A stretch of 64,000 nt of DNA from Solimonas variicoloris DSM 15731 (GTDB lineage Bacteria > Pseudomonadota > Gammaproteobacteria > Nevskiales > Nevskiaceae), in the NCBI RefSeq assembly GCF_000382285.1, contig NZ_KB907931.1, forward strand, positions 62,001 through 126,000, written 5' to 3'. Made by a program: the position numbers and the translations under genes. How positions within the stretch are numbered: the stretch's first letter is position 1; each line of letters starts with the position of its first letter. Positions 4,798-42,644 of this stretch are shown one piece after another. Below the pieces are notes generated by a model, which worked only from the letters and a program-made list of their open reading frames with translations, was not told the origin of the DNA and did no database searches.

Positions 4798-5949
4798 ATG
4801 CTTCGCTCATTCATCCGCGCGCTGGGTTTGACCCTGGTGCTGCAGGCGTTCCTCCCCGTCGGTGCGCACGCTGCCGAGCCGGCGACGCCCAAGGTGCCCG
4901 AGTACGCACTCGATCCCACCTGGCCGAAGCTGCCGCTGCCGCATAACTGGGCACTCGGCCTCATCAACGGCATCTATGTCGATGCCAAGAATCATCTGTG
5001 GATCTACCACAGTCCCGAGCTGGTGCCGAAGTACGCACTCGGCGCCGCGCAGAATCCGCCGATCGGCAAGTGCTGTGTGCCGGCGCCGGCGATCATCGAA
5101 TTTGACGAGGCGGGCAATGTGCTGCGCGCCTGGGGCGGTCCCGAGGACGCCAAGGTTCAGGGCTACGACTGGCCGTCCGCCGGTCACGGCCTGTATGTCG
5201 ACTACAAGGGCAATATCTGGATCGGCGGCAGCCAGACGCGCGTCGGCGCCGATGGCAGCCAGCCGGATGGCCTGTATCTGAAGTTCAGTCCGGACGGGAA
5301 GTTCCTGCTGCAGATCGGCGGCAAGGGGCCGTCCAAGGGCAGCCTCGACACGACCATGCTCAGCGGTGCGGCGGCGGTCGACGTCGATCCGGCGACCAAC
5401 GAAGTCTTCATTGCCGATGGTTACGGCAATCATCGTGTGATCGTGTTCGACGCCGACAGCGGCGTGTTCAAGCGCCAGTGGGGCGCTTACGGCAAGCCGC
5501 CGACCGATCTGAACATCCCGCGCTATGACGGTGGCCCGGCACTGCCGAAGCAGTTCAATCTCGTGCACTGCATCCGCATTGCCAAGGACGGGCTGGTCTA
5601 CGTCTGCGATCGCCTGAACGATCGCCTCCAGGTCTTCAAGAAGGATGGCAGCTTCGTCATGGAGCACGTCTACGAGCCGATGACGCGCGGCTCGGGTTCG
5701 GTCGGCAACGTCAGCCTGTGGCCGGATGCCCAGCAGACCTTCATGGTGATGAACGATCCCGGCAACTTCCAGACCGTCATCCTGCGCCGCTCCGATCTGA
5801 GCGAGGTCGCGCGCTTCGGCCACTACGGCACCTGGGCGGGCGAGTATCACCGCAATCACCAGATGGAGTTCGACCTGAAGGGCAATATCTACACGTCGGA
5901 AGATCACCGCGTGCAGAAGCTCAGAATCGCGAACGGCGTGAAACCCTGA
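4798..5949 (+). CDS. secreted NHL-repeat/six-bladed beta-propeller protein
   Basis: 383 residues. The ATG at 4798 has GGAGAG at 4784-4789 and opens a clear signal peptide (RSFIRALGLTLVLQAF to AHA, cleavage near residue 25). The mature part repeats propeller-type segments (LYVDYKGNIWIGG, VDPATNEVFIADGYGNHRVIVFD, GLVYVCDRLNDRLQVFKKDG, LKGNIYTSEDHRVQKLRI), typical of NHL or peptidyl-alpha-hydroxyglycine lyase-like propellers. A CC pair lies in the KCCVPAPA segment. The enzymatic role is unknown; it may be a ligand-binding or hydrolytic periplasmic partner of the receptor upstream. It probably shares the receptor transcript. Confidence 0.8.
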   Translation: MLRSFIRALGLTLVLQAFLPVGAHAAEPATPKVPEYALDPTWPKLPLPHNWALGLINGIYVDAKNHLWIYHSPELVPKYALGAAQNPPIGKCCVPAPAIIEFDEAGNVLRAWGGPEDAKVQGYDWPSAGHGLYVDYKGNIWIGGSQTRVGADGSQPDGLYLKFSPDGKFLLQIGGKGPSKGSLDTTMLSGAAAVDVDPATNEVFIADGYGNHRVIVFDADSGVFKRQWGAYGKPPTDLNIPRYDGGPALPKQFNLVHCIRIAKDGLVYVCDRLNDRLQVFKKDGSFVMEHVYEPMTRGSGSVGNVSLWPDAQQTFMVMNDPGNFQTVILRRSDLSEVARFGHYGTWAGEYHRNHQMEFDLKGNIYTSEDHRVQKLRIANGVKP

Positions 5950-25962: not shown

Positions 25963-26165
25963 GCGCTCCTGCCGCGCGGGCGCCATATGGGCGCCCGCGC
26001 AGGCTCGGTCGGTCGGGCTCCAGGGTCCGCGCGGACGTGTTGCGCTTCCGACCCTGTCCCGCCATGCCGCCGCGGCGTGACCTTCCATTTCGATCGAAAG
26101 CCTGACGATCCGCCCGGGCAGGGCACGGCCCTGCTCGGCGTCCACCCACACCCAAAAGAGCTGTC

Positions 26166-26438
26166 GTGAATAAGCGTTCGCTTCACTACAACCAGCTGTC
26201 GCCGCGCGAGATGCAGGCGTTGTACCTGCTGATCTGTGGGCGCTCGACCAGAGAAATGGCGGAGAGACTCCAGATCTCGGTGCATACCGCCCACCACCAT
26301 CGCCGCTGCGTGTACGAGAAGCTCAACGTGCACAACACGGCGCAGCTCATGCGCGAGGCCTTCCTGGAGGGCTGGCTGGTGCGGCGAGAGGACAGCAATG
26401 CGGCGCGCGGCGATCGGCGTCCGCGGCATCAGCCATAG
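26166..26438 (+). CDS. stand-alone LuxR/GerE-type HTH protein
   Basis: 90 residues, nearly all a LuxR-type helix-turn-helix: LSPREMQALYLLICGRSTREMAERLQISVHTAHHHRRCVYEKLNV (abridged). It has no sensor domain. Start is GTG at 26166 with AAAAGAG upstream. It sits 203 nt after the secreted-protein operon and may regulate it, much as GerE-like stand-alone HTH proteins do. The HHH run in the recognition helix region (TAHHHRR) is unusual. Confidence 0.8.
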   Translation: MNKRSLHYNQLSPREMQALYLLICGRSTREMAERLQISVHTAHHHRRCVYEKLNVHNTAQLMREAFLEGWLVRREDSNAARGDRRPRHQP

Positions 26439-26592
26439 CCGTGCGCGGCATCCTCGCCCTCCGTGAAACTCGGGGCAAGCCTCGCTGCGGGCGCGTCTCC
26501 GGGAGTGGTCCGGCTTCGCCCCTGCGGCCGCGCTGATGCGCGAAAGAGCGGGACGCGGGCAGCGGTGCGCCCTGTCGTCCGCCCCTCTTGCT

Positions 26593-27270
26593 TCAGGTTC
26601 CCGCCGAGTCCGGCGTCAGCTCGATGTGCTCGGGCTCGCCGAGGAACTTCGGTTCGGTGCTGAGCAGGAAGATGTCGAGGATCGCCTTGACGCGCGCGAA
26701 CACTTCGCGCGGCGGGTTGCGGCTGCCGTAGCCGCCATCACTGGTCGCCGGCGCGATGTAGGCGACGACCTTGAGGCCCAGCTTGCGGCCGATGAAGACG
26801 GCGCGGTACGAGTGGTAGCGCTGCGTGATGACGGTGAACTGCTTGAGGCCGAACACCGCCTCGGCGCGCACGATCGAGTCCAGCGTGCGGAAGCCGGCGA
26901 AGTCCATGGTGATCGCGGTGTCCGGCACGCCGGCCTTGATCAGCTCGCGGCGCATCGCGCGCGGCTCGTTGTAGGTCTCGTCGGGGTTCGCGCCGCTGAC
27001 GATCAGGTGCTTGAGCTTGCCGTTGCGGTACAGCTCCGCGGCCGCTTCGATGCGGCCGCGGAATTCCGGACTCGGCTTGCCGTTTTCCAGGTACTTGCTG
27101 GTGCCGAGCACGACACCGACGTCGTTTGCCGGCAGCAGCGCCCAGTCGCGGTAGATGTACGCGTCGGTGCTGTTGATGACCCAGCGGTTGCCGAGCAGCA
27201 CGATCAGCGCGAACGCGAGAAAGCCGGTGATCAGCCAGCGTTGCAGGAAGCGGCGAGTCCAGGGTTTCAA
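26593..27270 (-). CDS. SanA/YdcF-like DUF218 membrane-anchored protein
   Basis: 225 residues: one N-terminal membrane helix (WLITGFLAFALIVLLGN) and a DUF218 domain with VVLGTSKYLENGKPSPEFRGRIEAA, LIVSGAN and VITQRYHSYRAVFIGRKLGL. This matches SanA (vancomycin exclusion at high temperature) and relatives, which act in envelope barrier function. The start is TTG at 27270, overlapping the MAPEG stop as TTGA; no closer ATG exists. It is coupled to the MAPEG gene. Confidence 0.85.
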   Translation of the reverse strand: MKPWTRRFLQRWLITGFLAFALIVLLGNRWVINSTDAYIYRDWALLPANDVGVVLGTSKYLENGKPSPEFRGRIEAAAELYRNGKLKHLIVSGANPDETYNEPRAMRRELIKAGVPDTAITMDFAGFRTLDSIVRAEAVFGLKQFTVITQRYHSYRAVFIGRKLGLKVVAYIAPATSDGGYGSRNPPREVFARVKAILDIFLLSTEPKFLGEPEHIELTPDSAGT

Positions 27271-27668
27271 GTCGCAAGACCCCACAGCAGATACGCGAAC
27301 AGCGCGATCTGGATGACGTAGAAAGTCGCACGCACCATCACCAGTGCGACCGAGGTGCCGATCAGATGCACGACGCTCTGCGCGACGCGTGCGCCGAGCA
27401 CCCAGCAGCCGAGCGCATCGACGCCGGCGGTCTTGCCGAGCAGCTGCGCCGCCAGCACGATCACTGCGAACACCGGCAGGTTCTCGAGCACGTTCAGATG
27501 CGCGTGACCGGCGCGTTCGATGAAGGACGGTACGGCGATCGACGCGCCGCGGCCCCAGCTGTTGATGCGCTTGCCGCGCAGCACCTCGAACACGCGCCAC
27601 GTCAGCACGATGCCGACCAGCACCAGCGTCCACGCGGTATAGCCTAGCAGCGCCGTCATTCCCGTCAT
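27267..27668 (-). CDS. MAPEG family membrane protein
   Basis: 133 residues with four hydrophobic helices. The FEVLRGKRINSWGRG and ERAGHAHLNVLENLPVF segments are typical of MAPEG (membrane-associated eicosanoid/glutathione metabolism) proteins, which in bacteria are mostly glutathione-transferase-like and uncharacterised. The ATG at 27668 has GAGGGGA upstream. A second ATG at 27659 is possible. It is coupled to the SanA-like gene. Confidence 0.85.
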   Translation of the reverse strand: MTGMTALLGYTAWTLVLVGIVLTWRVFEVLRGKRINSWGRGASIAVPSFIERAGHAHLNVLENLPVFAVIVLAAQLLGKTAGVDALGCWVLGARVAQSVVHLIGTSVALVMVRATFYVIQIALFAYLLWGLAT

Positions 27669-27775
27669 GTTTCGTTTTCCCCTCGTTGTGAATCGTTTGG
27701 TATTGCGTCGCGGCCGTCGCGGCCGGCGGCGGTCGTCGGCAATTGTAGCCGCTGCGCCGGCGGGATCGCGCCGGC

Positions 27776-28954
27776 TCAGTGCGAGAGGCGGCGCATCGCC
27801 GCCTCGAGGCCCGACAGCGTCAGCGGGAACATGCGGCCCTGGCCGAGCAGTTCGTTGGTGACCTGCACCGACGGCGTGTATTCCCAGTGGTCCTCGCGTT
27901 CCGGGTTCAGCCAGACCAGGTTCGGGAACTGGTCATGGAGACGCTTGAACCAGACCGCGCCGGCCTCCTCGTTCCAGTGCTCGACGCTGCCGCCCGGATG
28001 GACGATCTCGTAGGGGCTCATGGTCGCGTCGCCGACGAACACGACCTTGTAGTCCGGCGTGTACTTGTGCAGCACGTCGAACAGCGGGATGCGCTCGCTG
28101 TGCCGGCGTGCGTTGTCCTTCCACACCGACTCGTAGACGAAGTTGTGGAAGTAGAAGTGCTCCAGATGCTTGAACTCGGTCTTGGCGGCGCTGAACAGTT
28201 CCTCGCAGACCTTGATGTGTGGGTCCATCGAGCCGCCGACGTCGAGGAACAGCAGTACCTTCACCGCATTGCGGCGCTCCGGCACCATCTTGATGTCGAG
28301 GTAGCCGGCGTTGCGCGCCGTCGAGCTGATGGTGTCGTCGATGTCGAGCACATCGGCGGCGCCTTCGCGCGCGAAGCGGCGCAGGCGGCGCAGCGCGATC
28401 TTGATGTTGCGGGTGCCGAGTTCGATGCTGTCGTCGAGGTTGCGGAAGTCGCGCTTCTCCCAGACCTTGACCGCCTTCTTCTGGCCGCCGGGTCCGCCGA
28501 TGCGGACGCCTTCCGGATTGAAGCCGCCGTGGCCGAACGGGCTGGTGCCGCCGGTGCCGATCCACTTGCTGCCGCCGTGGTGCTGTTCCTTCTGCTCTTC
28601 AAGGCGCTGCCGGAGCGTTTCCATCAGCTGGTCGAGCCCGCCGAGCGCCTGGATCTTGGCCAGTTCCTCCGGCGACAGATGCAGCTCGGCCTGCTTCTTC
28701 AGCCACTCCTCCGGGATCGAACCGAACAGCTCGCCGGTGACGGCTTCGATGCCCTTGAAGTACGCGGCGAACGCGCGGTCGAAGCGGTCGTACTGCGATT
28801 CGTCCTTGACCAGCGCCGCGCGCGACAGGTGGTAGAAGTCGTCGATCGAGAAGATCGCGACGTGCTTCGACAGCGCTTCCAGCAGCATCAGGAATTCGCT
28901 GAGGCTGGCCTTGACGCCGGCGGCGCGCAGGGTGAAGAAGAACGTGAAAAGCAC
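27776..28954 (-). CDS. VWA-domain CoxE-like protein
   Basis: About 392 residues. The N-terminus FTFFFTLRAAGVKASLSEFLMLLEAL is the usual start of CoxE-like VWA proteins, so GTG at 28954 is chosen despite no clear RBS. The MIDAS-like segment DVGGSMD is at about residues 239-245. A glycine-rich GTGGTSPFGHGGFNPEG stretch precedes it. Such proteins normally work with a MoxR-type AAA+ ATPase in metal insertion or complex maturation; no MoxR gene is in this window. It diverges from the alkA-like gene. Confidence 0.85.
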   Translation of the reverse strand: MLFTFFFTLRAAGVKASLSEFLMLLEALSKHVAIFSIDDFYHLSRAALVKDESQYDRFDRAFAAYFKGIEAVTGELFGSIPEEWLKKQAELHLSPEELAKIQALGGLDQLMETLRQRLEEQKEQHHGGSKWIGTGGTSPFGHGGFNPEGVRIGGPGGQKKAVKVWEKRDFRNLDDSIELGTRNIKIALRRLRRFAREGAADVLDIDDTISSTARNAGYLDIKMVPERRNAVKVLLFLDVGGSMDPHIKVCEELFSAAKTEFKHLEHFYFHNFVYESVWKDNARRHSERIPLFDVLHKYTPDYKVVFVGDATMSPYEIVHPGGSVEHWNEEAGAVWFKRLHDQFPNLVWLNPEREDHWEYTPSVQVTNELLGQGRMFPLTLSGLEAAMRRLSH

Positions 28955-29030
28955 GGGTGGCGGGGCAAGGGGTTTATGGCATTGTAGCGCCTCGTTCCCG
29001 TCCGTCCGCCAGCGCACCGCCGAGCCGACC

Positions 29031-29693
29031 ATGCCCGCTCCGACCCTCCGCGGTGCCGCCGCTTTCGTCCAGCAGGTGCGGGCCGCCGAACAGCATCTGT
29101 CCGGCGCCGATCCGGTGATGGCCGCAGTCATCGAGCGCCACGGTCCGTGCACGCTCGGCGCCACGCGCCGCGACCCGTTCCACACGCTGTGCGCGTCGAT
29201 CATCAGCCAGCAGCTGTCGAGCAAGGCGGCCGACACCATCCAGGCGCGGCTGATGGCCGGCATCGGCGCCGGGCGCCGCATCACGCCGCCGCTGCTGCTG
29301 GCGGCCAGCCACGAGGAATTGCGCGGCTACGGTCTGTCGACCGCCAAGGCGCGGTGGCTGCGCGCGCTCGGCGAGGCGGCCGCGGCCGGCACGCTGGATT
29401 TTCGTGCGCTCGGCCGGCTCGACGACGAGGCGGCGATCGCGGTGCTCGACGCGCTGCCCGGCATCGGCCGCTGGACCGCCGAGATGTTCCTGATGTTCGC
29501 GCTCAACCGTATCGACCTGTTCGCGATGGACGATGTCGGCCTGCGCCGCGGCGTGGCGATGCTCTACAACCGGGGCCGGCCGCTGTCCGACGCGCGCACC
29601 CTGAAGATCACGCGGCGCTGGGCGCCGTACCGCACGATCGCCAGCTGGTATCTCTGGCGCGTCGCCGACCCGGTCAACGAGATCTGGGTCTGA
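29031..29693 (+). CDS. DNA-3-methyladenine glycosylase II (HhH-GPD)
   Basis: 220 residues. It contains the helix-hairpin-helix LPGIGRWTAEMFLMF followed by the Gly/Pro-Asp region with IDLFAMDDVGLRRG, whose Asp is the expected catalytic residue. DPFHTLCASIISQQLSSKAADTI is the typical AlkA/Mag1 entry segment. It is the short AlkA form, lacking the N-terminal domain of E. coli AlkA and any methyl-transfer domain. It excises alkylated purines in base-excision repair. No strong RBS is seen before ATG 29031. Confidence 0.88.
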   Translation: MPAPTLRGAAAFVQQVRAAEQHLSGADPVMAAVIERHGPCTLGATRRDPFHTLCASIISQQLSSKAADTIQARLMAGIGAGRRITPPLLLAASHEELRGYGLSTAKARWLRALGEAAAAGTLDFRALGRLDDEAAIAVLDALPGIGRWTAEMFLMFALNRIDLFAMDDVGLRRGVAMLYNRGRPLSDARTLKITRRWAPYRTIASWYLWRVADPVNEIWV

Positions 29694-29708
29694 GCGCCGC
29701 GCGGCCGT

Positions 29709-30419
29709 TCAGGCCGCCGCCGGCACCGCCGCCTGCAGACGGCGCTGCGCGCGCCCGTACTTCTCGTCGATGCTGCGCAGCACGTACTGCTGGTGGAAGT
29801 AACGCTGCGCGCGCTGCTCGATGTACGCGCACGAGGCCGGCGAGGCGGTGTCGTAGTAGATGGTGAAGTCGAGCAGATCGTCACGGCCGAGCAGGTGCAG
29901 CGGCTCGTGGTCGACCGGCACCACGCCGAACTCGACGAAGTGCCGCAGCACCTGGTAGCGCGTCAGGCCGACGATGAAGTCGTAGCCGTGCGCCGCCGCG
30001 TGCAGCGCGCTGTGCCGCAGCAGCAGGCCGAGGGCGATGGTCGCGCGAAAGCGCGGCACGACGATCACGTTGTTGACTTCGAGCAGACGCAGCGGCGCGC
30101 CGTCGGCGCGCGTCGCGCGCGGCAGCACGCGGCGGAAATGATGATCGCCGTCGTCGACCGGCGTCAGCCGGAAGGTCGCCGCGGTCTGCGCGCCGAATTC
30201 GAGCAGGAAGCAGCGCGAATCGTCGGTCGGCCGCAGTCCGGCGAGCGGAAAGCCGAGCGCGCCGTAAGTCTGTTCGAGCAGCGCTTCGTAGGTGCGGCGC
30301 TGCAGCTGGCCGTCGATCTCGCGGATGCGGTAGCGCTCCGGGCGGTACAGATCGAGCGACGAATCGGCGGCGCCTGCCGACGGCAGGTCGGCGACGGCGG
30401 CGAGCGGAAGGCGGTTCAT
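29709..30419 (-). CDS. GNAT/autoinducer-synthase-like N-acyltransferase
   Basis: 236 residues. The fold pattern resembles LuxI/FeeM-type or PEP-CTERM-associated acyltransferases: RTYEALLEQTYGALGF (about 42-57), an AATFRLTP strand (about 80-87), LLEVNNVIVVPRFRATIALGLLLRHSALHAAAHGYDFIVGLT (abridged, about 112-152) with a conserved-type Glu114, and a C-terminal cap. Such enzymes transfer an acyl group to an amino acid or SAM. The gene has its own RBS (GGGGAG) and starts 12 nt after the oxidase gene, so the two form an operon. With the adjacent autoinducer-binding LuxR it may make the signal. Exact substrates are unknown. Confidence 0.65.
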   Translation of the reverse strand: MNRLPLAAVADLPSAGAADSSLDLYRPERYRIREIDGQLQRRTYEALLEQTYGALGFPLAGLRPTDDSRCFLLEFGAQTAATFRLTPVDDGDHHFRRVLPRATRADGAPLRLLEVNNVIVVPRFRATIALGLLLRHSALHAAAHGYDFIVGLTRYQVLRHFVEFGVVPVDHEPLHLLGRDDLLDFTIYYDTASPASCAYIEQRAQRYFHQQYVLRSIDEKYGRAQRRLQAAVPAAA

Positions 30420-30431
30420 GTCGGGCTCCCC

Positions 30432-31130
30432 TCAGGCGGCGCGCTGGTGGTCGTCGAAGAAGCGCTCGACGCTGCGCAGCACGTCGTCGTACAGCGCCCC
30501 GTAGTAGCGGAAGGTGTAGCGGCGCGCGCGAATCACCTCGTCGAGCACCTCGGGGGCGGCGGCATATTCGTTGACGGCGCGGCGCGCTTCCTCGAAGTGG
30601 CGGCGGTCGAACGAGGCGTGGCTGCGCAGGAAGGTGGTGGCCGTGTCCGGAATGCCGAGCCGGGCCGAGACCACGTCGGCCATGCGTCCGGCGAGTTCCA
30701 CGCCCATGCCCTCGGTCGCGGCGGCGACGCCGAGGATCGCGCCGGGACGGGCGTGCGTGGCGAGGAAGTAGTTCTGCGTGACCATGCCCCAGACGCCGGG
30801 GCCCGGCGCGCGCTGCACGATGCGCTCGGCGTCGAGCCCGAGCCGCTGCAGATCCTTGAGGCAGAACAGCTCGTGGCCGTGCTCCTCGTGCGCCTGTTCG
30901 AGCAGCCAGCCGCGCAGGCCGCGGTGCTCGTCGTCGAGCCGCGCGGCGGCGGTCGCCAGCGCGCGCGAGGTGTGACGCACGAGGTGGAAGGTTTCGCGCA
31001 GGAACAGCGCGTAGTGGTCGCGGCGCAGCTGGCCGGCCGCGAGTGCGGCCAGCAGCGGGTGGCCGAGGATCTGCGATTCGAAGTCGGCGCGGGTGGCGTC
31101 GAGCAACTGCGAGAACGGTTCCAAGCTCAT
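30432..31130 (-). CDS. heme-oxygenase-like diiron oxidase (iron-containing redox enzyme family)
   Basis: 232 residues, all-helical. Probable metal ligands come in the usual order: E46 and H53 (RETFHLVRH), the EEHGHE cluster at 82-87, E140, and H171/D175/H178 (SHASFDRRH). This fits the HDO superfamily, whose known members (UndA, BesC, SznF) use an unstable diiron site to decarboxylate, cleave or N-oxygenate fatty acids and amino acids. RBS GGGGAG lies six bases before ATG 31130. It sits between luxR and the acyltransferase, so it may modify the acyl or amino moiety of the signal. Confidence 0.75.
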   Translation of the reverse strand: MSLEPFSQLLDATRADFESQILGHPLLAALAAGQLRRDHYALFLRETFHLVRHTSRALATAAARLDDEHRGLRGWLLEQAHEEHGHELFCLKDLQRLGLDAERIVQRAPGPGVWGMVTQNYFLATHARPGAILGVAAATEGMGVELAGRMADVVSARLGIPDTATTFLRSHASFDRRHFEEARRAVNEYAAAPEVLDEVIRARRYTFRYYGALYDDVLRSVERFFDDHQRAA

Positions 31131-31192
31131 CGGTTTCTCCCCCTGGCAGTCTTGCCTGCGGTGGAGTCTCGACCCGTGCCGATGCGGGGCGC

Positions 31193-31212
31193 ACCTGCCG
31201 CAACGGACAGGT
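31193..31212. promoter_or_regulatory. lux-box-like inverted repeat before the oxidase/acyltransferase operon
   Basis: ACCTGCCGCAACGGACAGGT is a 20-bp imperfect palindrome with the outer ACCTG/CAGGT arms of classic lux boxes. It lies about 63 nt upstream of the oxidase ATG, in the 141-nt gap after luxR. A 16/20 match is at 37563-37582. Confidence 0.65.
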
Positions 31213-31271
31213 CGGCCGTCTTTCCGGAAAGGCGACGATCCCGATGCTGAGGATGCGATTGCGGCGGGGAT

Positions 31272-32045
31272 CTAGCCCCAGTCGATGAGCCCCTGCGAGA
31301 GGGCGATCGCCATCGCCTGCACGCGGTTGTTGGCCTGCAGCTTGCGCATGGCGTTTTCCAGATGGAACTTCACAGTGCGCGCGCCGATGCCCATCTGCAG
31401 CGAAATCTCCCAATCGGTCTTTCCGAATTTCGCCCAGTTCAGCGCCTCGCGCTCGCGGTCGCTGAGCACCGGCGCCTCCTTGAGCAGACCGAGATGGACC
31501 TTGGCCAGCGCTTCGTGCAGATGCGGGGTGAGGAACTCGATCATCACCGCGTGGCGGCGATGCCGCACCATCTCGCGCTCGTCGCAGATGCAGGTGAAGA
31601 AGCTCGCCGAGCTGGATTGCGAAAAGCGGGCGCCGAACGAGAAGCCCTCGTTCAGGCCGAAGTCGCGCGCGTCGGCGTAGAACTGCTTGGCACCGTCCAC
31701 GACATTGCGCTTGCGCAACTCGTGCCAGAGCAGCGGCCGGCCAGCGCCGAACAGTTCGCGCGCGACCGGATCGACGCGGAAGTATTCGCGCTCGCGGTAC
31801 TGGTTGAGCCACTCGAGCGGAAAATTGATGTGCATCTGCCGCGTGGTGGAAACGATGTTCGCGTCGGCATCGAGCGCGGCCACGCAGATGTGCACCTTCT
31901 CGAGCGGAATCAGCTCCGAGGCCAGATGCATGAGCCGCTTCATCTGTTGCTCGGAGCCGACGTGGCGCGCGGTATCGATGACGTCGAGCGCCTTGACCAG
32001 ATCCAGCTTCGACAGATGTCGGGCGATTTCGGTGGCCGTCGGCAT
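31272..32045 (-). CDS. LuxR-type regulator with autoinducer-binding domain (1)
   Basis: 257 residues. The N-terminal autoinducer-binding domain keeps the LuxR-family ligand-pocket residues W79, Y83, D92, P93 and W107. The C-terminal LuxR HTH (about 193-257) has LSDREREALNWAKFGKTDWEISLQMGI. ATG 32045 has GGGGGAG upstream. It is followed on the same strand by the oxidase and acyltransferase genes, with a lux-box-like site between. This is the arrangement expected of a signal receptor and its synthase operon, but with no canonical LuxI. Confidence 0.9.
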   Translation of the reverse strand: MPTATEIARHLSKLDLVKALDVIDTARHVGSEQQMKRLMHLASELIPLEKVHICVAALDADANIVSTTRQMHINFPLEWLNQYREREYFRVDPVARELFGAGRPLLWHELRKRNVVDGAKQFYADARDFGLNEGFSFGARFSQSSSASFFTCICDEREMVRHRRHAVMIEFLTPHLHEALAKVHLGLLKEAPVLSDREREALNWAKFGKTDWEISLQMGIGARTVKFHLENAMRKLQANNRVQAMAIALSQGLIDWG

Positions 32046-32199
32046 GTTTCTCCCCCATGGCTCGCAGCGCCGACAGTGTAGGCAAGTCGGAGCGCGCGCG
32101 GCGCCTGCGGTTTCGCGCTGCGCTGCAGCATCGCACCGCCGCTGCGGACGCCTGTCGATGCGATCGGCAGCGGTGGCCAGGGAAGGTCAGAACCACGTC

Positions 32200-32296
32200 T
32201 GTCATCGCGAGGCCGCGCCGCGGCCGCAGCGATCCGGAGACACAGCTTGCTTCCTGCGTCGCCGCGGCTTCTCGCCGCCGGCGCCTCGTCATGACG
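32200..32296. repeat. intergenic inverted-repeat element, copy 1
   Basis: The left arm begins GTCATCGCGAGGC and the right arm ends CCTCGTCATGACG; the middle has GCAGCGATCC and CGCCGCGG-type complements. It resembles the TCATTGCGAG-type dispersed repeats of many proteobacterial genomes and a second, diverged copy at 36245-36343. It lies upstream of luxR(1). Confidence 0.5.
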
Positions 32297-32320
32297 ATGG
32301 ATGGCGCGATGCAGAGGCGC

Positions 32321-32893
32321 CTAAAGCCCGAGCACGGCGCGCAGCGCGCGCGCATCGATCGTGCGCGGCGCATACAGCGGCCGCAGCAGCGTTGCCGCCG
32401 GCGCCGGCAGCGGCGCCTCGCCGTCGGCGTTGAGCAGGGCCGGATTGCGCGCGCGCGCCAGGCGGATCAGCGCCTGCTCGACGCAGGCGATCTCGGCGCC
32501 GGTGCCCGATGCCGGCAGGCCGCCGCAGTCGAGACGCCCGAGCAGGTGCAGGTGCGCGTCGAGACAGGGCATGCATGCCTGCGCCTGCGCGTAGATCCGC
32601 AGGCAGGCGTCGCTCAGGCAGACCTCGGCGAACGAGCCGCCGTCGGCACGGCCGACGTACCACGGCAGCGCCGCTGCGCGGCCGCGCAGGCTGAAGACGA
32701 AGCAGCCGCAGGCGGCGGCGAGGCCGTCTTCGCGCCCGGCGATGTCGGCCAGCACGCGTCGCCGCGCGGCCGGTGTCGCGTCGAAACCTCCGTCGGCGGC
32801 GAGCGGCAGCTCGAACGGGCCGAACACGGCGAATGCGGTGCCGGCCCATATCGCGCGCCGATGCCGCGTCCGCTTGCGTGTGGTGTCCGGCAT
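32321..32893 (-). CDS. hypothetical protein with a PWYVGxA segment (GIY-YIG-like?)
   Basis: 190 residues, no signal peptide. The central segment GCFVFSLRGRAAALPWYVGRADGGSF followed by a CLRIYAQAQ helix resembles the YxF...PWYVGK pattern of divergent GIY-YIG-like domains. It also has several Cys (CGCF, CLSDACL, ACMPCLDAH, DCGG, ACVEQA) that could bind metal. I cannot assign a function. The ATG at 32893 has AAGGA just upstream. It diverges from the TetR gene. Confidence 0.6.
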   Translation of the reverse strand: MPDTTRKRTRHRRAIWAGTAFAVFGPFELPLAADGGFDATPAARRRVLADIAGREDGLAAACGCFVFSLRGRAAALPWYVGRADGGSFAEVCLSDACLRIYAQAQACMPCLDAHLHLLGRLDCGGLPASGTGAEIACVEQALIRLARARNPALLNADGEAPLPAPAATLLRPLYAPRTIDARALRAVLGL

Positions 32894-32966
32894 GGGTCCT
32901 TGACCTTCCGCCGTCGGCGGTTCGGGGCAGGCACATCGATGCTCGCGGTCGGGGATTTCCCGACCA

Positions 32967-32998
32967 ACTGGCCATTAGGACAGTGCCCATTGTCACTG
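32967..32998. promoter_or_regulatory. overlapping inverted repeats upstream of the TetR gene
   Basis: ACTGGCCATTAGGACAGT (32967-32984) is lux-box-like, and its CTGGCC-N4-GGACAG core matches 37485-37500 in 14 of 16 positions. Overlapping it, GACAGTGCCCATTGTC (32979-32994) is a second inverted repeat that could be a TetR operator. The site lies about 54 nt before ATG 33037 and 75 nt before the divergent gene. Confidence 0.55.
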
Positions 32999-33036
32999 CG
33001 GCCTGCGAAGGTGGCGCTGTCATCCGAGCGACATCC

Positions 33037-33798
33037 ATGAAGCCCAAGTGCCATCCAGCCTCTCACGCGCATGCCGGGACGCGACCGGGTTCCGCCGGCA
33101 GCGAGCCCGGCCTCGCGCTGCAACGCGGCCCGCGCGCCGTCAATCGCGTCTACGGCGGCCGCGCCATGGCCGAGCTCAAGGCCGAGCGCCGCGAGCGCCT
33201 GATGAACGCGGCCTACGCGCTGATCGGCCGCGAGGGCTATGCGCGCCTGTCGATCGAGCGCACCTGCGCCGCGGCGCGCGTCGCTACACGCCATTACTAC
33301 GAGCACTTCCAGGGGCGCGAGGCCCTGCTGCACGGGCTGTTCGACCGTGTCGAGGCCGAACTCTGGCAGGCCGTCACGCGCGCCCTGACCGAGCCGGGCG
33401 TGGAAACCGGAGAACGCAGCGGCGCGGCGATCCGCGCTTTTGTGCGGCATGCGCTGTCCGATCCGATCCGGGCCCGCATCATGTGTCTGGAGAGCGTCGG
33501 CGTCAGTGCCGAACTCGAAGAAAAGCGGCGGCGCCTGATCCGTCGTTTCGCCGAGCTGATCCATCAGGTCTCGCGGCAGCTTGCGGCCGACGGCGTGCTG
33601 CCGGCCGCCGACTATCGGCTGTCCGGCATCGCCCTGGTCGGCGCGACCAACGAGCTGCTCGTCGAGTGGATCTCCGGCGGCATGCGTCTGACGGTCGAGG
33701 AAATGGAATTGCAGGTGCTCAACATCTTCCGCGCGCTGACCAAGGGCGCGGTCTATGCGCACCACGAGGCGGTGGGCTTGCCGATCCTGCCATGCTAG
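33037..33798 (+). CDS. TetR-family transcriptional regulator
   Basis: 253 residues. The subfamily entry motif RVYGG is followed by AERRERLMNAAYALIGREGYARLSIERTCAAARVATRHYYEHFQGREALL (abridged), a TetR HTH, and a helical ligand-binding domain. The long start at 33037 is chosen because the RVYGG motif lies upstream of the internal ATG at 33166. Its 5' region carries the overlapping palindromes at 32967-32998, so it may be both autoregulated and under LuxR control. The ligand is unknown. Confidence 0.85.
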   Translation: MKPKCHPASHAHAGTRPGSAGSEPGLALQRGPRAVNRVYGGRAMAELKAERRERLMNAAYALIGREGYARLSIERTCAAARVATRHYYEHFQGREALLHGLFDRVEAELWQAVTRALTEPGVETGERSGAAIRAFVRHALSDPIRARIMCLESVGVSAELEEKRRRLIRRFAELIHQVSRQLAADGVLPAADYRLSGIALVGATNELLVEWISGGMRLTVEEMELQVLNIFRALTKGAVYAHHEAVGLPILPC

Positions 33799-33831: not shown

Positions 33832-34605
33832 TCAGCCCCAGTCGACGAGACCTTGCGAGAGAGCGATGGCGATGGCTTGCACACGGTTGCTGGCCTGCAG
33901 CTTGTGCATGACGTTCTCGATATGGAACTTGACGGTGCGGGCGCTGCAGCCAATCTGAAGGGAAATTTCCCAGTCCGTCTTCCCGAACTTGGCCCAATGC
34001 ATGACCTCGCGCTCTCGCTCGGTGAGCACAGGCATTAGCTTGAGTAGGCCAAGCTGTATGCGGCCGAGTGCGGCGTGCAGGTGCGGGGTCAGATAGTCGA
34101 TGACAGCGAGATGGCGCTGGTGCCGTGGCAATTCGTGTGGATCGCATATGGCCGCGAATACGCTGTAGCCAGGGAAGTGCGAGAAGCGTGCGCCGAAGGT
34201 GAAGCCGTCACGCAGCCCGTAGGCGTTGGCGGCGGCATAGATACGCATCTGCTCGGGCGAGCGATGGCGCTGGCGTAAGTCGTGCCAGATGACGGCGCGG
34301 CCGGTTCGCATGAGCTCGTCCCAGGCGGGATCGACGGCGGCATAGTTACCCTCCAGGTATTCCTGCACGAATTGCGACGGGTAGTCGATCAGGATGTGGC
34401 GGCTGAAGCCGGAAATCTGGGACTGCTCGTCCAACGAAGCGAAGCAGACGTGCATGCGCTCGAGCGGGATCAGCCGCGAGGCAATCGCGACGAGCTGCCG
34501 GAACTGGTCTTCGGTACCGGCCTTGTCGGCCTTTTCGACGAGATCCAGCGTGTCGATCAGTTCGGCTTTCGAAAGGTACTTCGCGAGTTGCGAGGCATCA
34601 CGCAT
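33832..34605 (-). CDS. LuxR-type regulator with autoinducer-binding domain (2)
   Basis: 257 residues, exactly the length of LuxR(1), and the two align without gaps. Ligand-pocket equivalents are F79 (Trp in the paralogue), Y83, D92, P93 and W107. The HTH REREVMHWAKFGKTDWEISLQ is nearly identical to that of the paralogue, so both may read the same DNA site. ATG 34605 has GGGAGAAGG upstream. No synthase gene is directly attached; it diverges from the secreted-protein gene at 35177. Confidence 0.9.
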   Translation of the reverse strand: MRDASQLAKYLSKAELIDTLDLVEKADKAGTEDQFRQLVAIASRLIPLERMHVCFASLDEQSQISGFSRHILIDYPSQFVQEYLEGNYAAVDPAWDELMRTGRAVIWHDLRQRHRSPEQMRIYAAANAYGLRDGFTFGARFSHFPGYSVFAAICDPHELPRHQRHLAVIDYLTPHLHAALGRIQLGLLKLMPVLTEREREVMHWAKFGKTDWEISLQIGCSARTVKFHIENVMHKLQASNRVQAIAIALSQGLVDWG

Positions 34606-37242: not shown

Positions 37243-37484
37243 CTTGAATCTCCTCTGGTAGTTGGTGCTCTTTCGAGCAGTCGCGTCATCGGCGGTGAAC
37301 GGCAATCCTCGGAGGCTCCCGGCGTGGAGGGCCGTTCCTGCTGGCGGCGCGTTGCGGTTTTTGAGCGAAGCGAGCGATCTGGTCAAACCGCTTTCCGATT
37401 TATTCGGCGCGACTTAAAAGTTATGGAAATCAAGGGCAGAAGACCCGAAAGCCGGCCATTCCTGGGGCGGACACACCGTTTCAG

Positions 37485-37500
37485 CTGGCCGTAAGGACAG
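37485..37500. promoter_or_regulatory. lux-box-like inverted repeat (distal) in the DUF1302 promoter region
   Basis: CTGGCCGTAAGGACAG is an imperfect palindrome with the same 6-4-6 layout as 32968-32983. It lies about 205 nt before the DUF1302 ATG and 243 nt before the divergent gene start. Confidence 0.55.
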
Positions 37501-37562
37501 GCCATCGCCCGATGAACGGCGCCCTTGCAGCGCGGCCGTGCTTGCCGAGGGTGCATAGCCCA

Positions 37563-37582
37563 GCCTGCCTAAACAGACAGGT
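37563..37582. promoter_or_regulatory. lux-box-like inverted repeat (proximal) upstream of the DUF1302 operon
   Basis: GCCTGCCTAAACAGACAGGT matches the site before the oxidase operon (31193-31212) in 16 of 20 positions. It lies about 123 nt before ATG 37705 and abuts the palindrome at 37580-37596. Confidence 0.65.
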
Positions 37583-37596: not shown

Positions 37597-37704
37597 GGAC
37601 CGCCCATACTCCAACGAAGCCGCATCGGGAAAGTCGGCTTGTATGGAATCACAGGCCCCGCGGGGAGACCCCGACGGGAGCTGACCCAAAGAGGGAGGAG
37701 AGAG

Positions 37705-40044
37705 ATGGGCAAGAGCGGATGGGGCCGTACGGGCGGCCATGTATGCACGATGCTGGCCATCATGGCGGTATTCTTCGCCATGCCGGCATTCGCCGTGGAC
37801 TTCGACCTCACCAGCGACGACCTGGCGAAATGGGGCGATATTCATTTCAGCTGGACGAATCGCATCAGCGGCGGCGCCGCCATGCGTGTCGAGGATCGCG
37901 ACAACCGCATCGTCGGCAAGCAGAACGTGTCGGGCAATCAACTGCTCTGCACGTATGCGGGCAGCTATCATGGCGGCGACTGCCAGTCACTGAACGGCGA
38001 TCCCGAGCCGAGTCGCCGGCTGATCGCCGCGCCGGGCGGTTACAACATCAACGGTGACGACGGGAACCTCAATTACGACAAGGGTGACGTCACCTATTCC
38101 GGCGTTTCGCTACGCTCGACGCTGGGCGGCGAATGGCGCAACGTCAGCTTCAAGGTTGGCGGCATCGGCTACTACGATCCAGTCAACTCGAACTTCAAGA
38201 CGCACCTGCGCGACATGGACTATCCGAACCGTGGCACGCAGGCCAATCAAACGATCACGCTGAACCGCGACAACCATCGCCGCTCGGACCTCGAGGACGA
38301 GTCGGGCTGGAACGCGAAGCTGCTCGAAGCCTATGTCTCGACCGCCTTCAAGGTGGCGGACGACCATCAGCTGCGGCTGGCTGTCGGCCAGCAATACCTG
38401 CGCTGGGGCGAGAGCACCTTCATGCTGTTTAACAACCTTGCTCAGATTAATCCGCTGTCGGCGACCTTGTGGCGCCTGCCGGGCGCTGAAGTCAAGGACG
38501 CCTTCCTGCCGACGAACCTGGCGACGGCGGGTATCGATCTGGCGCCCAAGCTGAGCCTGAGCGGCTTCTATCAGCTGACTTGGAAGCGGACAGAGCCGGA
38601 TATCTCCGGCACCTACATGTCGGTGCAGGATGTCGCCGGCGCCGGCCACGGACCGGTGCCCATCTATCTTGGTTTCGACCAATACCCGGAGGATCCGCTG
38701 GGGCAGCTGCTCCCAGAGGGTTTCGCCAACACGATCGCTCGTAGCGACCGCACGGTTTATCTCGACCACGATCGTGAGCCGAGCAATGGCGGGCAGTTCG
38801 GCTTCCGGCTGGACTACTACGCGGACTGGCTGAACGGCGGCACCGAGATGAGCCTGTACGGCATGAACATCCACAGCCGCCTGCCGTACTTCAGCGCCGA
38901 AGCCGCCATGAAGGGTTGCTACGACATCGGTGCGTTCTATCCCGATCCCTATAGCGGAGGTTCAGTTTTCGGCCCCTGCCTGACGATGTACGGACTTGAT
39001 GAGAACAATCCAGACGATGCCAAAAAAATCTACGCCGACTACGCGGTGCCAGTGGGTTCGATCCGGCCGTTTCTCGAGTATCCGGAAGACATCCATATCT
39101 TCGGCGCCAGCTTCAACACGACGGTCGGTGACTGGTCGCTGGCTGGTGAACTGACATACAGCCCGAACCAGCCGGCACAGGTCAGCGTGGTCGATGTGGT
39201 CTACGCCGCCGAGCAGCCGGCATTCCCCGACACGCCGGCCGGCAACGGCATGGGCGGGGTGCCTAATAACTACGGTATCAGCAGGATGAATGTGCCGACC
39301 AACCGTGTCTATATCCCGGATTACATCGAAACGGTGTACCGGCGCGGCAATGGGCTATACGACACGGATGTCCAGAACCGCGTGCAGCCTGGCGACTACA
39401 TCCGCGGCTACGAGCGCCTTAAGGTGGGGCAGATCAGCTTCACCGGCATCCGCATCTTCTCGGGGAGCAACTGGATACGTGCCAACCAGATCCTTGCGGT
39501 CGGCGAGGTGGCGGCCGTACGGGTCTTCGACATGCCGTCGATTAGCCGTGTGCAGTTCGAAGGGGCTACCGGCCGCAACCTGCATTACAGCATGGGGCAG
39601 TCGGAGTACGACCCCGTGCGCGATGGCGTGCCGGGGCCGGTCGAATATGACGACGACGGGTATCCGATCATTCAGACGCCGGCCAACGGTGGCCGCATCG
39701 TCGGGCCGCTCGACGTCGCAAACCCCGAGCGCGCGAGCCGCAAGAGCTTTGCCACAGACTTTGCGTGGGGGTACCGCGCCCGTGTGACGGCGACGTACAA
39801 CGACGTGATCGGCGGCGTGGGCTTCACGCCAGGCATCGAGATCTGGCACGACGTCAAGGGTACCTCGATCTATCCGGCGCAGGATTTCGTCGAGGGCCGC
39901 ATCCAGACGACATTCTCCAACGAGTTCAAGTTCACTGAGAGCACGACCGCGCTGCTGCGCTATGTGATGTTCAGCGGCGGCGGCTACCGCAATACGCGCA
40001 TCGATCGCGACTATATCGAGCTGTCGTTCACAAACACGTTCTGA
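37705..40044 (+). CDS. DUF1302 family exported protein
   Basis: 779 residues. GAGGGAGGAGAGAG precedes ATG 37705; the signal peptide ends FAMPAFA. The mature protein begins VDFDLTSDDL and shows DUF1302 features (WTNRISGGAAMRVEDRD, RLAVGQQYLRWGES, FNTTVGDWSLAGEL, YIRGYERLKVGQIS) and ends in the outer-membrane-like LSFTNTF. It is paralogous to the partial gene at 1-1002. It heads the DUF1302-DUF1329-YCF48-RND operon and is preceded by two lux-box-like sites. Its role is probably an outer-membrane channel or lipid-related factor paired with DUF1329. Confidence 0.9.
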   Translation: MGKSGWGRTGGHVCTMLAIMAVFFAMPAFAVDFDLTSDDLAKWGDIHFSWTNRISGGAAMRVEDRDNRIVGKQNVSGNQLLCTYAGSYHGGDCQSLNGDPEPSRRLIAAPGGYNINGDDGNLNYDKGDVTYSGVSLRSTLGGEWRNVSFKVGGIGYYDPVNSNFKTHLRDMDYPNRGTQANQTITLNRDNHRRSDLEDESGWNAKLLEAYVSTAFKVADDHQLRLAVGQQYLRWGESTFMLFNNLAQINPLSATLWRLPGAEVKDAFLPTNLATAGIDLAPKLSLSGFYQLTWKRTEPDISGTYMSVQDVAGAGHGPVPIYLGFDQYPEDPLGQLLPEGFANTIARSDRTVYLDHDREPSNGGQFGFRLDYYADWLNGGTEMSLYGMNIHSRLPYFSAEAAMKGCYDIGAFYPDPYSGGSVFGPCLTMYGLDENNPDDAKKIYADYAVPVGSIRPFLEYPEDIHIFGASFNTTVGDWSLAGELTYSPNQPAQVSVVDVVYAAEQPAFPDTPAGNGMGGVPNNYGISRMNVPTNRVYIPDYIETVYRRGNGLYDTDVQNRVQPGDYIRGYERLKVGQISFTGIRIFSGSNWIRANQILAVGEVAAVRVFDMPSISRVQFEGATGRNLHYSMGQSEYDPVRDGVPGPVEYDDDGYPIIQTPANGGRIVGPLDVANPERASRKSFATDFAWGYRARVTATYNDVIGGVGFTPGIEIWHDVKGTSIYPAQDFVEGRIQTTFSNEFKFTESTTALLRYVMFSGGGYRNTRIDRDYIELSFTNTF

Positions 40045-40104
40045 AATTGAGGGCGGCGGCTTATTTGTAGCTGCCGCTGCAACCGGCATTCGATGGAGGG
40101 CGGC

Positions 40105-41523
40105 ATGCGAATCATCCGAGAAAAACTGGCGGCATCCCTATGCGTACTGTTGTTATGCGGCGCACCACTGGCGGCGAGCGCCAAGGTGAGCGAGGCGGAG
40201 GCCGAAAAGCTCGGCAAGGAGCTGACGCCGTTGGGAGCCGAACCCCAGGGCAGCAAGGACGGTACGATCCCCGAGTGGAAGGGTGCTGCGATATTCAACG
40301 ATGAGCAGAAGCACTACACATTCGCAAAGCTGCAGCAGTTGCGTAGTGCTGATCCGGACCGCCTGAACATGACGCGGACCGCGCAGGGCGAGGCGGTCGA
40401 CAAGCCGCTGTTCACGATCACGGCGCAGAACTACACGCAGTACGCCGAGCATCTGAGCGCCGGTCACCAGGAGATGTTCCGGCGCTATCCGGACTACAAG
40501 ATGATCGTCTATCCGTCGGTGCGCGGGCATTTCGCGCCGGAGGAGATCAACGAAGCGGTGAAGTACAACGCGACGCACGCCGAGCTGGACGGCACCGACG
40601 ACATCAGCGGCGCGCGCCTGGCGACGCCGTTCCCGATTCCGAAGAACGGCGCCGAGGTGATGTGGAACAACCGCCTGAAGTTCCGCGGTGTGTCGGCGGT
40701 GCGGCGCTACAACAACCAGGCGATCGTCGACGCCGACGGCAGCTTCCAGATCTCCAAGCTGATCGAGGACGTGCGCGTCGAGTACGGCAACCTCAAGGAC
40801 AAGAGCCGCGAGAACAACGTCATCGTCTACTACCTGCAGCGCACGCTGTCGCCGGCGCGCGTCGCCGGGCAGATCACGCTGGTGCACGAGATCTTCGGCA
40901 AGGGCACCAGCGGCCGCAACGCGTGGATCTACAACCCGGGGCTGGCGCGCGTGAACCGCGCGCCGGAAGTCGGCTTCGACAATCCCTCGCTCGGGTCGGA
41001 CGGCCTGCAGTTCAACGACCAGATCGACATGTTCAACGGCTCGCTGTCGCGCTACGACTGGAAGCTGATCGGCAAGCGGGAGATCTACATCCCCTACAAC
41101 GCGTACACGATGAGCGACCCGCGCTACAAGTACAAGGACATCATCCGCAAGGGGCACATCAACCAGGATCTGGCGCGCTATGAACTGCATCGTGTCTGGG
41201 TCGTCGAGGCCAATCTGCGTCCGGGCCACGCGCACCAGTTCAAGCGCCGCACCTTCTACCTCGACGAGGACTCGTGGGCGCTGACGCTGGTCGACTGCTA
41301 CGACAATCGCGACAAGCTGTGGAAGCTGCAGGAAGGTCACGTCATCACGCTGCCGTTCCTGCCCGGTTCGACCACCGTGCCGGAAGTGATTTACGACCTG
41401 CAGAGCGGCCGCTACTTCGTCACGGCGATGGTCAACGAGGACAGCGTCAACAACTTCGAGCTGAGCTTCGATCGCGAGTACTTCCTGCCGAAGAACCTGC
41501 GCAGCCTCGGCGAGCGCCGCTGA
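40105..41523 (+). CDS. DUF1329 family exported protein (outer-membrane lipoprotein-sorting-like)
   Basis: 472 residues. ATG 40105 is preferred to 40093 because GGAGGG (40095-40100) lies between them. The signal peptide ends LAASA. The mature start KVSEAEAEKLGKELTPLGAE and the blocks MIVYPSVRGHF, NNVIVYYLQRTLSPARVAGQITL, AWIYNPGLARVNRAPEVGFDNP and KREIYIPYNAY are typical DUF1329, a LolB-like-fold family. It is the standard neighbour of DUF1302. The gene follows DUF1302 by 60 nt. Confidence 0.93.
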   Translation: MRIIREKLAASLCVLLLCGAPLAASAKVSEAEAEKLGKELTPLGAEPQGSKDGTIPEWKGAAIFNDEQKHYTFAKLQQLRSADPDRLNMTRTAQGEAVDKPLFTITAQNYTQYAEHLSAGHQEMFRRYPDYKMIVYPSVRGHFAPEEINEAVKYNATHAELDGTDDISGARLATPFPIPKNGAEVMWNNRLKFRGVSAVRRYNNQAIVDADGSFQISKLIEDVRVEYGNLKDKSRENNVIVYYLQRTLSPARVAGQITLVHEIFGKGTSGRNAWIYNPGLARVNRAPEVGFDNPSLGSDGLQFNDQIDMFNGSLSRYDWKLIGKREIYIPYNAYTMSDPRYKYKDIIRKGHINQDLARYELHRVWVVEANLRPGHAHQFKRRTFYLDEDSWALTLVDCYDNRDKLWKLQEGHVITLPFLPGSTTVPEVIYDLQSGRYFVTAMVNEDSVNNFELSFDREYFLPKNLRSLGERR

Positions 41524-41543
41524 AGCGCAACGACGGAACGAAG

Positions 41544-42644
41544 ATGGACGATCGCATGAAGCGGAGAAGTCTTGCGGCACTGCTCGTGGCCGCGGTCTGG
41601 TTCGCCGCCGGCGCGGCGCGCGCCGATGATCCAACGCAGGAACCGGCACCGGCGCAGCGGGCGCCGCGCCCGGCGCTGATGGCGCGGCTCGCGGCGTCCG
41701 CGCCGCTGCTGGATCTGGCGCGGGCCGGGCCGCGGCTGGTGGCGGTCGGCGCGCGCGGCAACATCGTGGTCTCGGACGACGGCCGCGACTGGCGGCAGGT
41801 GCACAGCCCGGTCGACGTGATGCTGACGCGCGTGTTCTTCCTCGACGCGCGCCGGGGCTGGGCGGTCGGCCACGACGGCGTGATCCTGCAGACCGGCGAT
41901 GGCGGGCGGCACTGGTCGGTGCAGCGCTGGGTGCCGGATCGCGGGCCGCTGTACGACGTGCTGTTCCTCGATGCGCAGCGCGGCTTCGCGGTCGGCAGCT
42001 ATGGAGCGCTGCTGCACAGCGACGACGGCGGCGCGCACTGGCAGGAGATCGACAGCCCGATCCGCGAGCCGGGCCTGCACTTCAACGCGATCGCGCGGCT
42101 CGCCGACGGCACGCTGTTCATCGCCGGCGAGCGCGGCATGCTGGCGCGTTCGGCCGACGAGGGGGCGAGCTGGACGATGCTGGATTCGCCGTACCGCGGC
42201 TCGATGTTCGGCGTGCTGCCGCGCGGCGCGCACGGCGCGATGATCTTCGGTCTGCGTGGTTCGATCTATGTCACCGACGACGCGCGCGCCGTGCGCAGCA
42301 TCGCCGTCGACGGCTGGGACGAATTCGACCGCGAGACGGTGAGTGATCCGGCGGCGCTCGCCGCGCTCGGCTGGCGGCACGTCGACAGTCCGTCGCACGA
42401 GAGTCTGTTCCGCGGCATCGCCGACGGTGACCAGGCGCTGCTGACCGGCGTCAACGGCGTCGTGCTGCAGGTGCCGGACGATGGCGGCCCGGTCCGCGCG
42501 CTGGCCAGCGCCGAGAATGAAACGCTGTCGGGGCTGCAGCCGTTCGACGGACAGTGGATCGCCGTCGGCCTGCGTGGCGCGCGCGCGCTGCCGGTGGTCG
42601 CCGCCACGAGTCCGCGGCTGGCAACGGCGGGAGCGAAGCCATGA
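41544..42644 (+). CDS. periplasmic YCF48/BNR-type beta-propeller protein
   Basis: 366 residues. The signal peptide (LAALLVAAVWFAAGAARA, abridged) is followed by repeated propeller units of the form GNIVVSDDGRDWRQV, GVILQTGDGGRHWSV, GALLHSDDGGAHWQEI and GMLARSADEGASWTML. This is the photosystem-II-assembly/YCF48 pattern that accompanies RND/MMPL exporters in DUF1302/DUF1329 clusters. It probably scaffolds or gates the exporter. Its stop overlaps the RND start as ATGA. Confidence 0.9.
   Translation: MDDRMKRRSLAALLVAAVWFAAGAARADDPTQEPAPAQRAPRPALMARLAASAPLLDLARAGPRLVAVGARGNIVVSDDGRDWRQVHSPVDVMLTRVFFLDARRGWAVGHDGVILQTGDGGRHWSVQRWVPDRGPLYDVLFLDAQRGFAVGSYGALLHSDDGGAHWQEIDSPIREPGLHFNAIARLADGTLFIAGERGMLARSADEGASWTMLDSPYRGSMFGVLPRGAHGAMIFGLRGSIYVTDDARAVRSIAVDGWDEFDRETVSDPAALAALGWRHVDSPSHESLFRGIADGDQALLTGVNGVVLQVPDDGGPVRALASAENETLSGLQPFDGQWIAVGLRGARALPVVAATSPRLATAGAKP

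Follow-up and report, generated by a model that had tools for sequence, protein, structure and literature searches.

A CviR-like receptor beside a diiron oxidase and a GNAT-fold acyltransferase: a candidate signalling locus of Solimonas variicoloris without a LuxI

The window analysed here, a stretch of 64 kb of Solimonas variicoloris DSM 15731 lying on contig C7 of the 4.12-Mb genome, carries a locus that resembles a quorum-sensing system. On the minus strand, a gene for a LuxR-type receptor (LuxR1) is followed by one for a haem-oxygenase-like diiron oxidase (HDO) and, after a gap of 12 nt, by one for an acyltransferase. This arrangement had been described in a first-pass annotation made from the sequence, and its strand, gene bounds and gap were all confirmed; the three reading frames are open over the intervals below, and their G+C content by codon position is of the coding type. 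The positions of sites relative to genes in the window use gene bounds entered by hand, and the gene maps of related loci come from an in-house gene caller.

29709-30419, minus strand: acyltransferase with a GNAT fold (by model), 236 amino acids, without the LuxI active-site motif
30432-31130, minus strand: HDO, 232 amino acids, PF14518
31193-31212, read on the minus strand: predicted lux-type operator ACCTGTCCGTTGCGGCAGGT, one mismatch from the CviR site CTGNCCNNNNGGNCAG
31272-32045, minus strand: LuxR1, a CviR-like receptor, 257 amino acids, with Autoind_bind and GerE domains

The acyltransferase is present in four of 85 genomes of the order, representing three lineages: the own genome (G000), Solimonas flava DSM 18980 (G040), a Nevskiales metagenome-assembled genome (MAG; G046) and Sinimarinibacterium sp. 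CAU 1509 (G044). All four carriers have adjacent LuxR, HDO and acyltransferase genes in this order, and the proteins are 48-57% identical between the three lineages. Strong HDO matches (E 2e-133 or better) occur in exactly these genomes; 18 others of the order hold distant HDOs only (E 7e-36 or weaker), and for these an inspection by eye found no LuxR match within 20 kb among the matches listed. LuxR matches above 360 bits are also confined to the carriers, the next best reaching 88 bits, with a profile that was itself built from carrier sequences. These data support the view that the three genes are passed on together, and the possibility raised in the first-pass annotation, that the HDO-acyltransferase pair might never be linked to LuxR genes, is contradicted by this neighbourhood survey. 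In the MAG and Sinimarinibacterium the acyltransferase gene is followed by one for a PF00487 protein, with what we take to be AlkB-like histidine boxes, and then by an alpha/beta hydrolase gene; of this PF00487 protein, the own genome and S. flava hold no more than distant relatives (at most 215 bits, against 740).

In a sample of the class, the acyltransferase was found in two of 369 genomes, namely the own genome and a partial match at E 3.7e-4, and in a sample of the phylum in one of 398, again the own genome. A tblastn search of plasmids with the acyltransferase gave no match. The search pattern was fitted by 59 stretches of viral contigs, none of them a relative, and by 364 stretches in the collection of genome contigs, three of which are relatives; PHROGs yielded one marginal family match. 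The open-access literature that was searched held nothing joining a heme-oxygenase-like protein, a LuxR and an acyltransferase, no non-LuxI GNAT signal-synthase locus recognisable by title or start of the abstract, and, among the matches listed for quorum sensing and LuxR, no Solimonas; absence from print is not claimed. A second, distant HDO is encoded in the own genome (L086, 6473-8638).

By itself the acyltransferase matches no Pfam or NCBIfam model at E<=0.1, and this includes PF00765 (Autoind_synth), against which true LuxIs of relatives in the order score 114-123 bits. It also lacks a motif that three LuxIs of the order share without variation (RxRYxVFHERLxW ... DGxExDxFDD), of which the N-terminal R/F/W residues and ExDxFD presumably form the LuxI active site. 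On these two grounds the protein was rejected as a member of the LuxI family, and they also make it very unlikely that we are dealing with a highly divergent synthase of N-acyl-homoserine lactones (AHLs) whose ordinary product is altered by the HDO. The FeeM model PF21926, applied at E<=1, touches two of the four family members, with 19.4 bits at best against a cut-off of 27; the acyltransferase of the window gave no match to it, and was also missed by the corresponding genome search. A sequence search of the PDB returned one marginal, unrelated match. An AlphaFold model of modest quality has a GNAT fold, with FeeM, AHL synthases and ordinary GNATs among its matches, and in a second structural comparison FeeM ranked first but tied with ordinary GNATs, with AHL synthases in the same list. 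The earlier description of the enzyme as autoinducer-synthase-like thus rests on this modest model, with which it is compatible, although ordinary GNATs do as well as FeeM.

The absence of a canonical LuxI, which had also been claimed, holds for the own genome in a search with PF00765. The single place found there, at 26.8 bits, encodes a protein that matches Acetyltransf_5 at 1.2e-30 and whose best NCBIfam match, OlsB, is below the cut-off of that model. The other three carriers were tested indirectly, through the PF21926 search, in which nothing in them exceeded 24.3 bits, where the LuxIs of three other genomes reach 35-44. Those three LuxI-bearing genomes also belong to the order, and in each a LuxR relative is the neighbour of the true LuxI.

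The family assignment of the HDO was borne out both by its match to PF14518 (1.6e-23, 83.9 bits against a cut-off of 28.9) and by its fold. The model (pLDDT 78.6) has 3dde, CtCADD and UndA among its Foldseek matches, the nearest solved structure being 3dde, an uncharacterised Shewanella protein. UndA, CADD and other HDOs share this fold and Pfam family, with TM scores by query length of 0.77 for CtCADD and about 0.68 for UndA. The residues E83xxH86, E140 and H171xxxD175xxH178 are invariant in the four aligned rows and are candidate metal ligands, six positions assigned by analogy with the spacing in UndA. A ligand set of three histidines and three carboxylates is described for HDOs in the available text of one source (PMC13108848).

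A lux-box-like palindrome had been proposed between the receptor gene and the pair. A site was indeed found there, at 31193-31212, with its core 64 nt upstream of the HDO start. According to the available part of one report, which cites Stauff and Bassler, the CviR site is CTGNCCNNNNGGNCAG, and this sequence also precedes the synthase gene of the CviR system (PMC12114271). Between LuxR and HDO the MAG and Sinimarinibacterium (L012, L013) carry this sequence exactly, and the copies of the window and S. flava each differ from it at one position. At up to one mismatch, it occurs at ten places in the window against 3.31 expected, a count reached by none of 100 shuffles; six of these places are inside predicted genes and four are intergenic, all of the latter between 31.2 and 37.5 kb. 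Over the whole L012 and L013 stretches the site is no more frequent than expected by chance. A stricter 20-mer, allowed up to three mismatches, was found 12 times in G044, five in G046, seven in G040 and four in G000, as opposed to three, one, none and none for the reversed pattern, whereas five relatives without the operon gave eight in total versus 14 for the reversed pattern. At up to two mismatches, sites remain only in G044 (nine) and G046 (one), with none in the five operon-less relatives.

Looser searches were less clear-cut. The window has one 20-mer at up to three mismatches, a count matched by six of 100 shuffles. The palindrome ACCTGN10CAGGT, at up to one mismatch, occurs three times in the window (reached by four of 100 shuffles), once in L012 (36 of 100) and three times in L013 (three of 100). 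When sites were scored as bare palindromes against first-order resampled sequence, those of the two relatives were matched by 33 and 17 of 1000 shuffles, and that of the window was not above the shuffles. The proposed palindrome thus stands in its position and in its counterparts, but not by its own symmetry, and we keep the window site as a candidate operator because of the sites in relatives and the CviR consensus. Taken across the three lineages, the comparison supports an operator of the receptor's own type upstream of the HDO-acyltransferase operon.

Could the palindromes instead be LexA (SOS) boxes, or chance repeats, with neighbours unrelated to LuxR1? The core CTGTN8ACAG is also that of the SOS box and was seen in eight of nine lexA-type promoters examined, one of the sites lies upstream of an integron integrase gene, and the window site is degenerate; these points count against control by LuxR1. 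Integron integrases are classical SOS targets. However, the lexA-type promoters, drawn from five genomes, mostly read ACTGTAT with AT-richer centres and other outer and inner bases, and every 20-mer within 300 nt of lexA-type genes is at least six mismatches from the motif. Relatives without the operon, as noted, have no match at up to two mismatches. LexA boxes were rejected as the identity of the sites on the distance of the best lexA-promoter 20-mers, and we give this explanation hardly any weight.

LuxR1 itself matches Autoind_bind (4.7e-20) and GerE (3.7e-17), and the best solved relative of the LuxR profile is CviR (3qp5, E 1.5e-46). An identification as EpsA (TIGR03020) was rejected, the score of 74.5 bits being below the NCBIfam cut-off of 170. 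The pocket residues listed in the first-pass annotation, W79, Y83, D92, P93 and W107, are all present, and were confirmed in an alignment of three operon-linked receptors (those of the window and two relatives) with a second receptor, LuxR2, of the window and S. flava. The operon-linked receptors keep the equivalents of CviR Y88 and W111, the latter presumably a pocket residue of CviR as well. In the available text of a docking study of CviR, W84 bonds to the carbonyl of the lactone, D97 to the nitrogen of the amide, and both Y80 and S155 to the carbonyl of the acyl group (PMC6132053). The equivalents of W84, D97 and S155 are W79, D92 and T151 in the window and W, D and S in the two relatives; the equivalent of Y80 is F, Y and F in the three receptors, thus F in two of three lineages. 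Because the W, D and T/S contacts are kept, an N-acyl amide that carries a second carbonyl, such as an AHL or a derivative of an N-acyl amino acid, could fit the pocket of LuxR1. In both LuxR2 proteins the pocket Trp is replaced by F and the Ser by A; this paralogue may not read AHLs, and its ligand may be something else, or nothing.

A LuxR receptor often has no LuxI partner, and for many such receptors the ligand has yet to be identified. The chief rival to a self-made signal is that LuxR1 is an eavesdropping LuxR solo, which senses AHLs from neighbours or from unrelated enzymes, and that the pair makes an oxidised N-acyl metabolite (such as an antibiotic, a surfactant or a membrane aminolipid) that is exported by the AmeABCD-like pump and is not a signal. 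We regard this as a tentative explanation, yet one with real weight. Several observations favour it, and to that extent weigh against a signal made at the locus: LuxR1 retains the W, D and S/T contacts to AHLs, so that an AHL made by neighbours is a possible ligand; CviR, its nearest relative of known structure, is a receptor for AHLs; the same sites stand upstream of an efflux cluster; and the AlkB-like and hydrolase genes lie downstream in two lineages. On the other hand, no genome of the order that lacks the pair holds a LuxR of this type. An operator immediately before the acyltransferase operon, beside the gene of its receptor, is the arrangement typical of an autoinduction loop, and sites upstream of unrelated genes, for instance comEA, resemble a wider regulon.

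We put the probability at about 0.5 that the locus works as a CviR-type autoinduction loop, in which the HDO and an acyltransferase of FeeM/LuxI-like fold take the synthase slot instead of a LuxI. In such a loop, ligand-bound LuxR1 would dimerise on CTGNCC-N4-GGNCAG and turn on the HDO-acyltransferase operon. The acyltransferase, judged by its modelled fold, would shift a fatty acyl group, probably from acyl-acyl carrier protein, to an amino acid or amine. The substrate of the HDO might be this product or else the still unacylated amine; N-hydroxylation and an oxidative decarboxylation that yields an enamide are examples of what it could do, and in two lineages the AlkB-like oxygenase and the hydrolase could make further changes. 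The N-acyl product would then be the ligand of LuxR1 and close a positive loop; that the operon makes this ligand we infer from how it is arranged, from the restriction of the three genes to the same genomes, from the missing LuxI and from the fold. Judging by the sites, LuxR1 and perhaps LuxR2 would also drive an AmeABCD-like efflux cluster in Solimonas, and in relatives comEA, lipoproteins and perhaps an integron integrase might be driven likewise.

More tentatively, and at somewhat less than even odds, the locus may make a signal of a new class, namely an N-acyl amino acid, amine or enamide in oxidised form, produced by an HDO and an acyltransferase of FeeM/LuxI-like fold, altered in some species by AlkB-like oxygenation, and read by a CviR-type LuxR that controls its own synthase, efflux and, in Sinimarinibacterium, DNA uptake through comEA and integron recombination. 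The first-pass annotation had likewise read the locus as a new N-acyl signal; the inherited unit, the operator, the missing LuxI and the GNAT-fold model agree with this, and the step from product to ligand stays conjectural. That annotation had not noted that LuxR1 is related to CviR, that there are further operators and a second LuxR, or that relatives carry AlkB-like and hydrolase genes.

Among known systems, FeeM is one of the closest to the acyltransferase, although below the cut-off of 27, and here the enzyme is linked to an HDO and a LuxR; FeeM relatives are reportedly linked to PEP-CTERM systems. The LuxR solos PluR (photopyrone) and PauR (dialkylresorcinol) are paired with non-LuxI synthases of the ketosynthase type, in contrast to the GNAT fold and HDO seen here. 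The CviI/CviR (CsuI/CsuR) system of Chromobacterium, in the available text of two sources, has in common with the locus the receptor kinship, the operator CTGNCCNNNNGGNCAG and the W/D/S-T contacts (PMC12114271, PMC6132053), but its synthase is of LuxI type, where here an HDO and a FeeM/LuxI-fold acyltransferase follow the operator. In the valdiazen/fragin (ham) system, according to the available part of the report, HamA is described as a heme-like oxygenase and belongs to those ham genes that cannot be spared for the diffusible signal valdiazen (PMC5878181). Likened by description, HamA is a precedent for a haem-oxygenase-like protein in signal making; the ham system has a nonribosomal peptide synthetase-like protein and an AurF-type N-oxygenase, whereas the Solimonas locus has an adjacent LuxR and an acyltransferase.

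Receptor, operator and candidate synthase are linked and conserved in three lineages and could be transferred together to Escherichia coli for a direct search for the ligand. Should the proposed loop be correct, diiron oxidases would take part in making LuxR ligands, and the comEA and integrase operators of Sinimarinibacterium would connect a population signal to DNA uptake and rearrangement.

Further features of the window, and of related genomes by locus, are as follows.

28911-29693: DNA-glycosylase-like gene, convergent, next after the acyltransferase gene
32321-32893, minus strand: gene for 190 amino acids between the two LuxR genes, no family match
32966-32985 (core 32968-32983): exact CviR-type site, 74 nt upstream of the 190-residue gene
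33832-34605, minus strand: LuxR2, paralogue of LuxR1, with pocket changes W to F and S/T to A
37483-37502 (core 37485-37500): exact CviR-type site upstream of the efflux cluster
37563-37582: second CviR-type site upstream of the efflux cluster, two core mismatches as counted by reading
37639-45049, plus strand: putative regulated efflux cluster (DUF1302, DUF1329, YCF48-type propeller, MMPL/HAE3-like RND pump)
L006 10106-12120 and L007 7456-9449: PF00487 oxygenase and alpha/beta hydrolase after the acyltransferase, in two lineages
L082 6797-8418, L083 2858-4422 and L084 6641-8139: true LuxR-LuxI tandems of three other genomes of the order
L126 4625-4885 with site 4971-4990 (Sinimarinibacterium) and L134 4528-4791 with site 4875-4894 (MAG): comEA-like gene and CviR-type site
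L132 4001-4969 with palindrome 5027-5046: integron integrase gene and CviR-type site 57 nt upstream

The product of the 190-residue gene matched no Pfam or NCBIfam model at E<=0.1. The site upstream of this gene, at 32966-32985, recurs in S. flava, and since it lies within a 96% identical stretch (window 26052-33770), that copy is not independent. In S. flava, two exact CviR-type sites stand before the corresponding efflux cluster, in a region where blastn aligns nothing before the DUF1302 coding region. AmeABCD of Castellaniella, in the available part of its description, likewise unites genes for an outer-membrane protein, two periplasmic proteins and an HAE3-type RND pump in a single cluster (PMC6394551). 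The window cluster is likened to it by domains and gene order, its pump scoring 133 bits against the HAE3 model TIGR00921, below the cut-off of 352.

Neighbourhoods of the sites in Sinimarinibacterium and other relatives were mapped for nine of 13 loci; L135 was compared separately, and L136-L138, which hold three-mismatch sites, lay outside the mapping. In Sinimarinibacterium, exact or near sites are upstream of comEA (TIGR00426, 79 bits), a DUF2846 lipoprotein gene, another lipoprotein gene and the integron integrase gene (TIGR02249, 460 bits). The comEA site is at about the same distance in the MAG, and is missing (at least six mismatches) from seven of nine genomes examined, the trio-carrying own genome and S. 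flava included. As the core CTGTN8ACAG is common to both types of site, the integrase may be under LexA control. Other Sinimarinibacterium sites, close to small genes or lying between the ends of genes, may be due to chance, and two other places in that genome share the flank of the integrase site (L131 2548 and L128 4895). Near 33770, identity of the window to S. flava drops from 96% to about 70-79%, and because of this fall the side with LuxR2 and the efflux cluster may have a different history from that of the trio.

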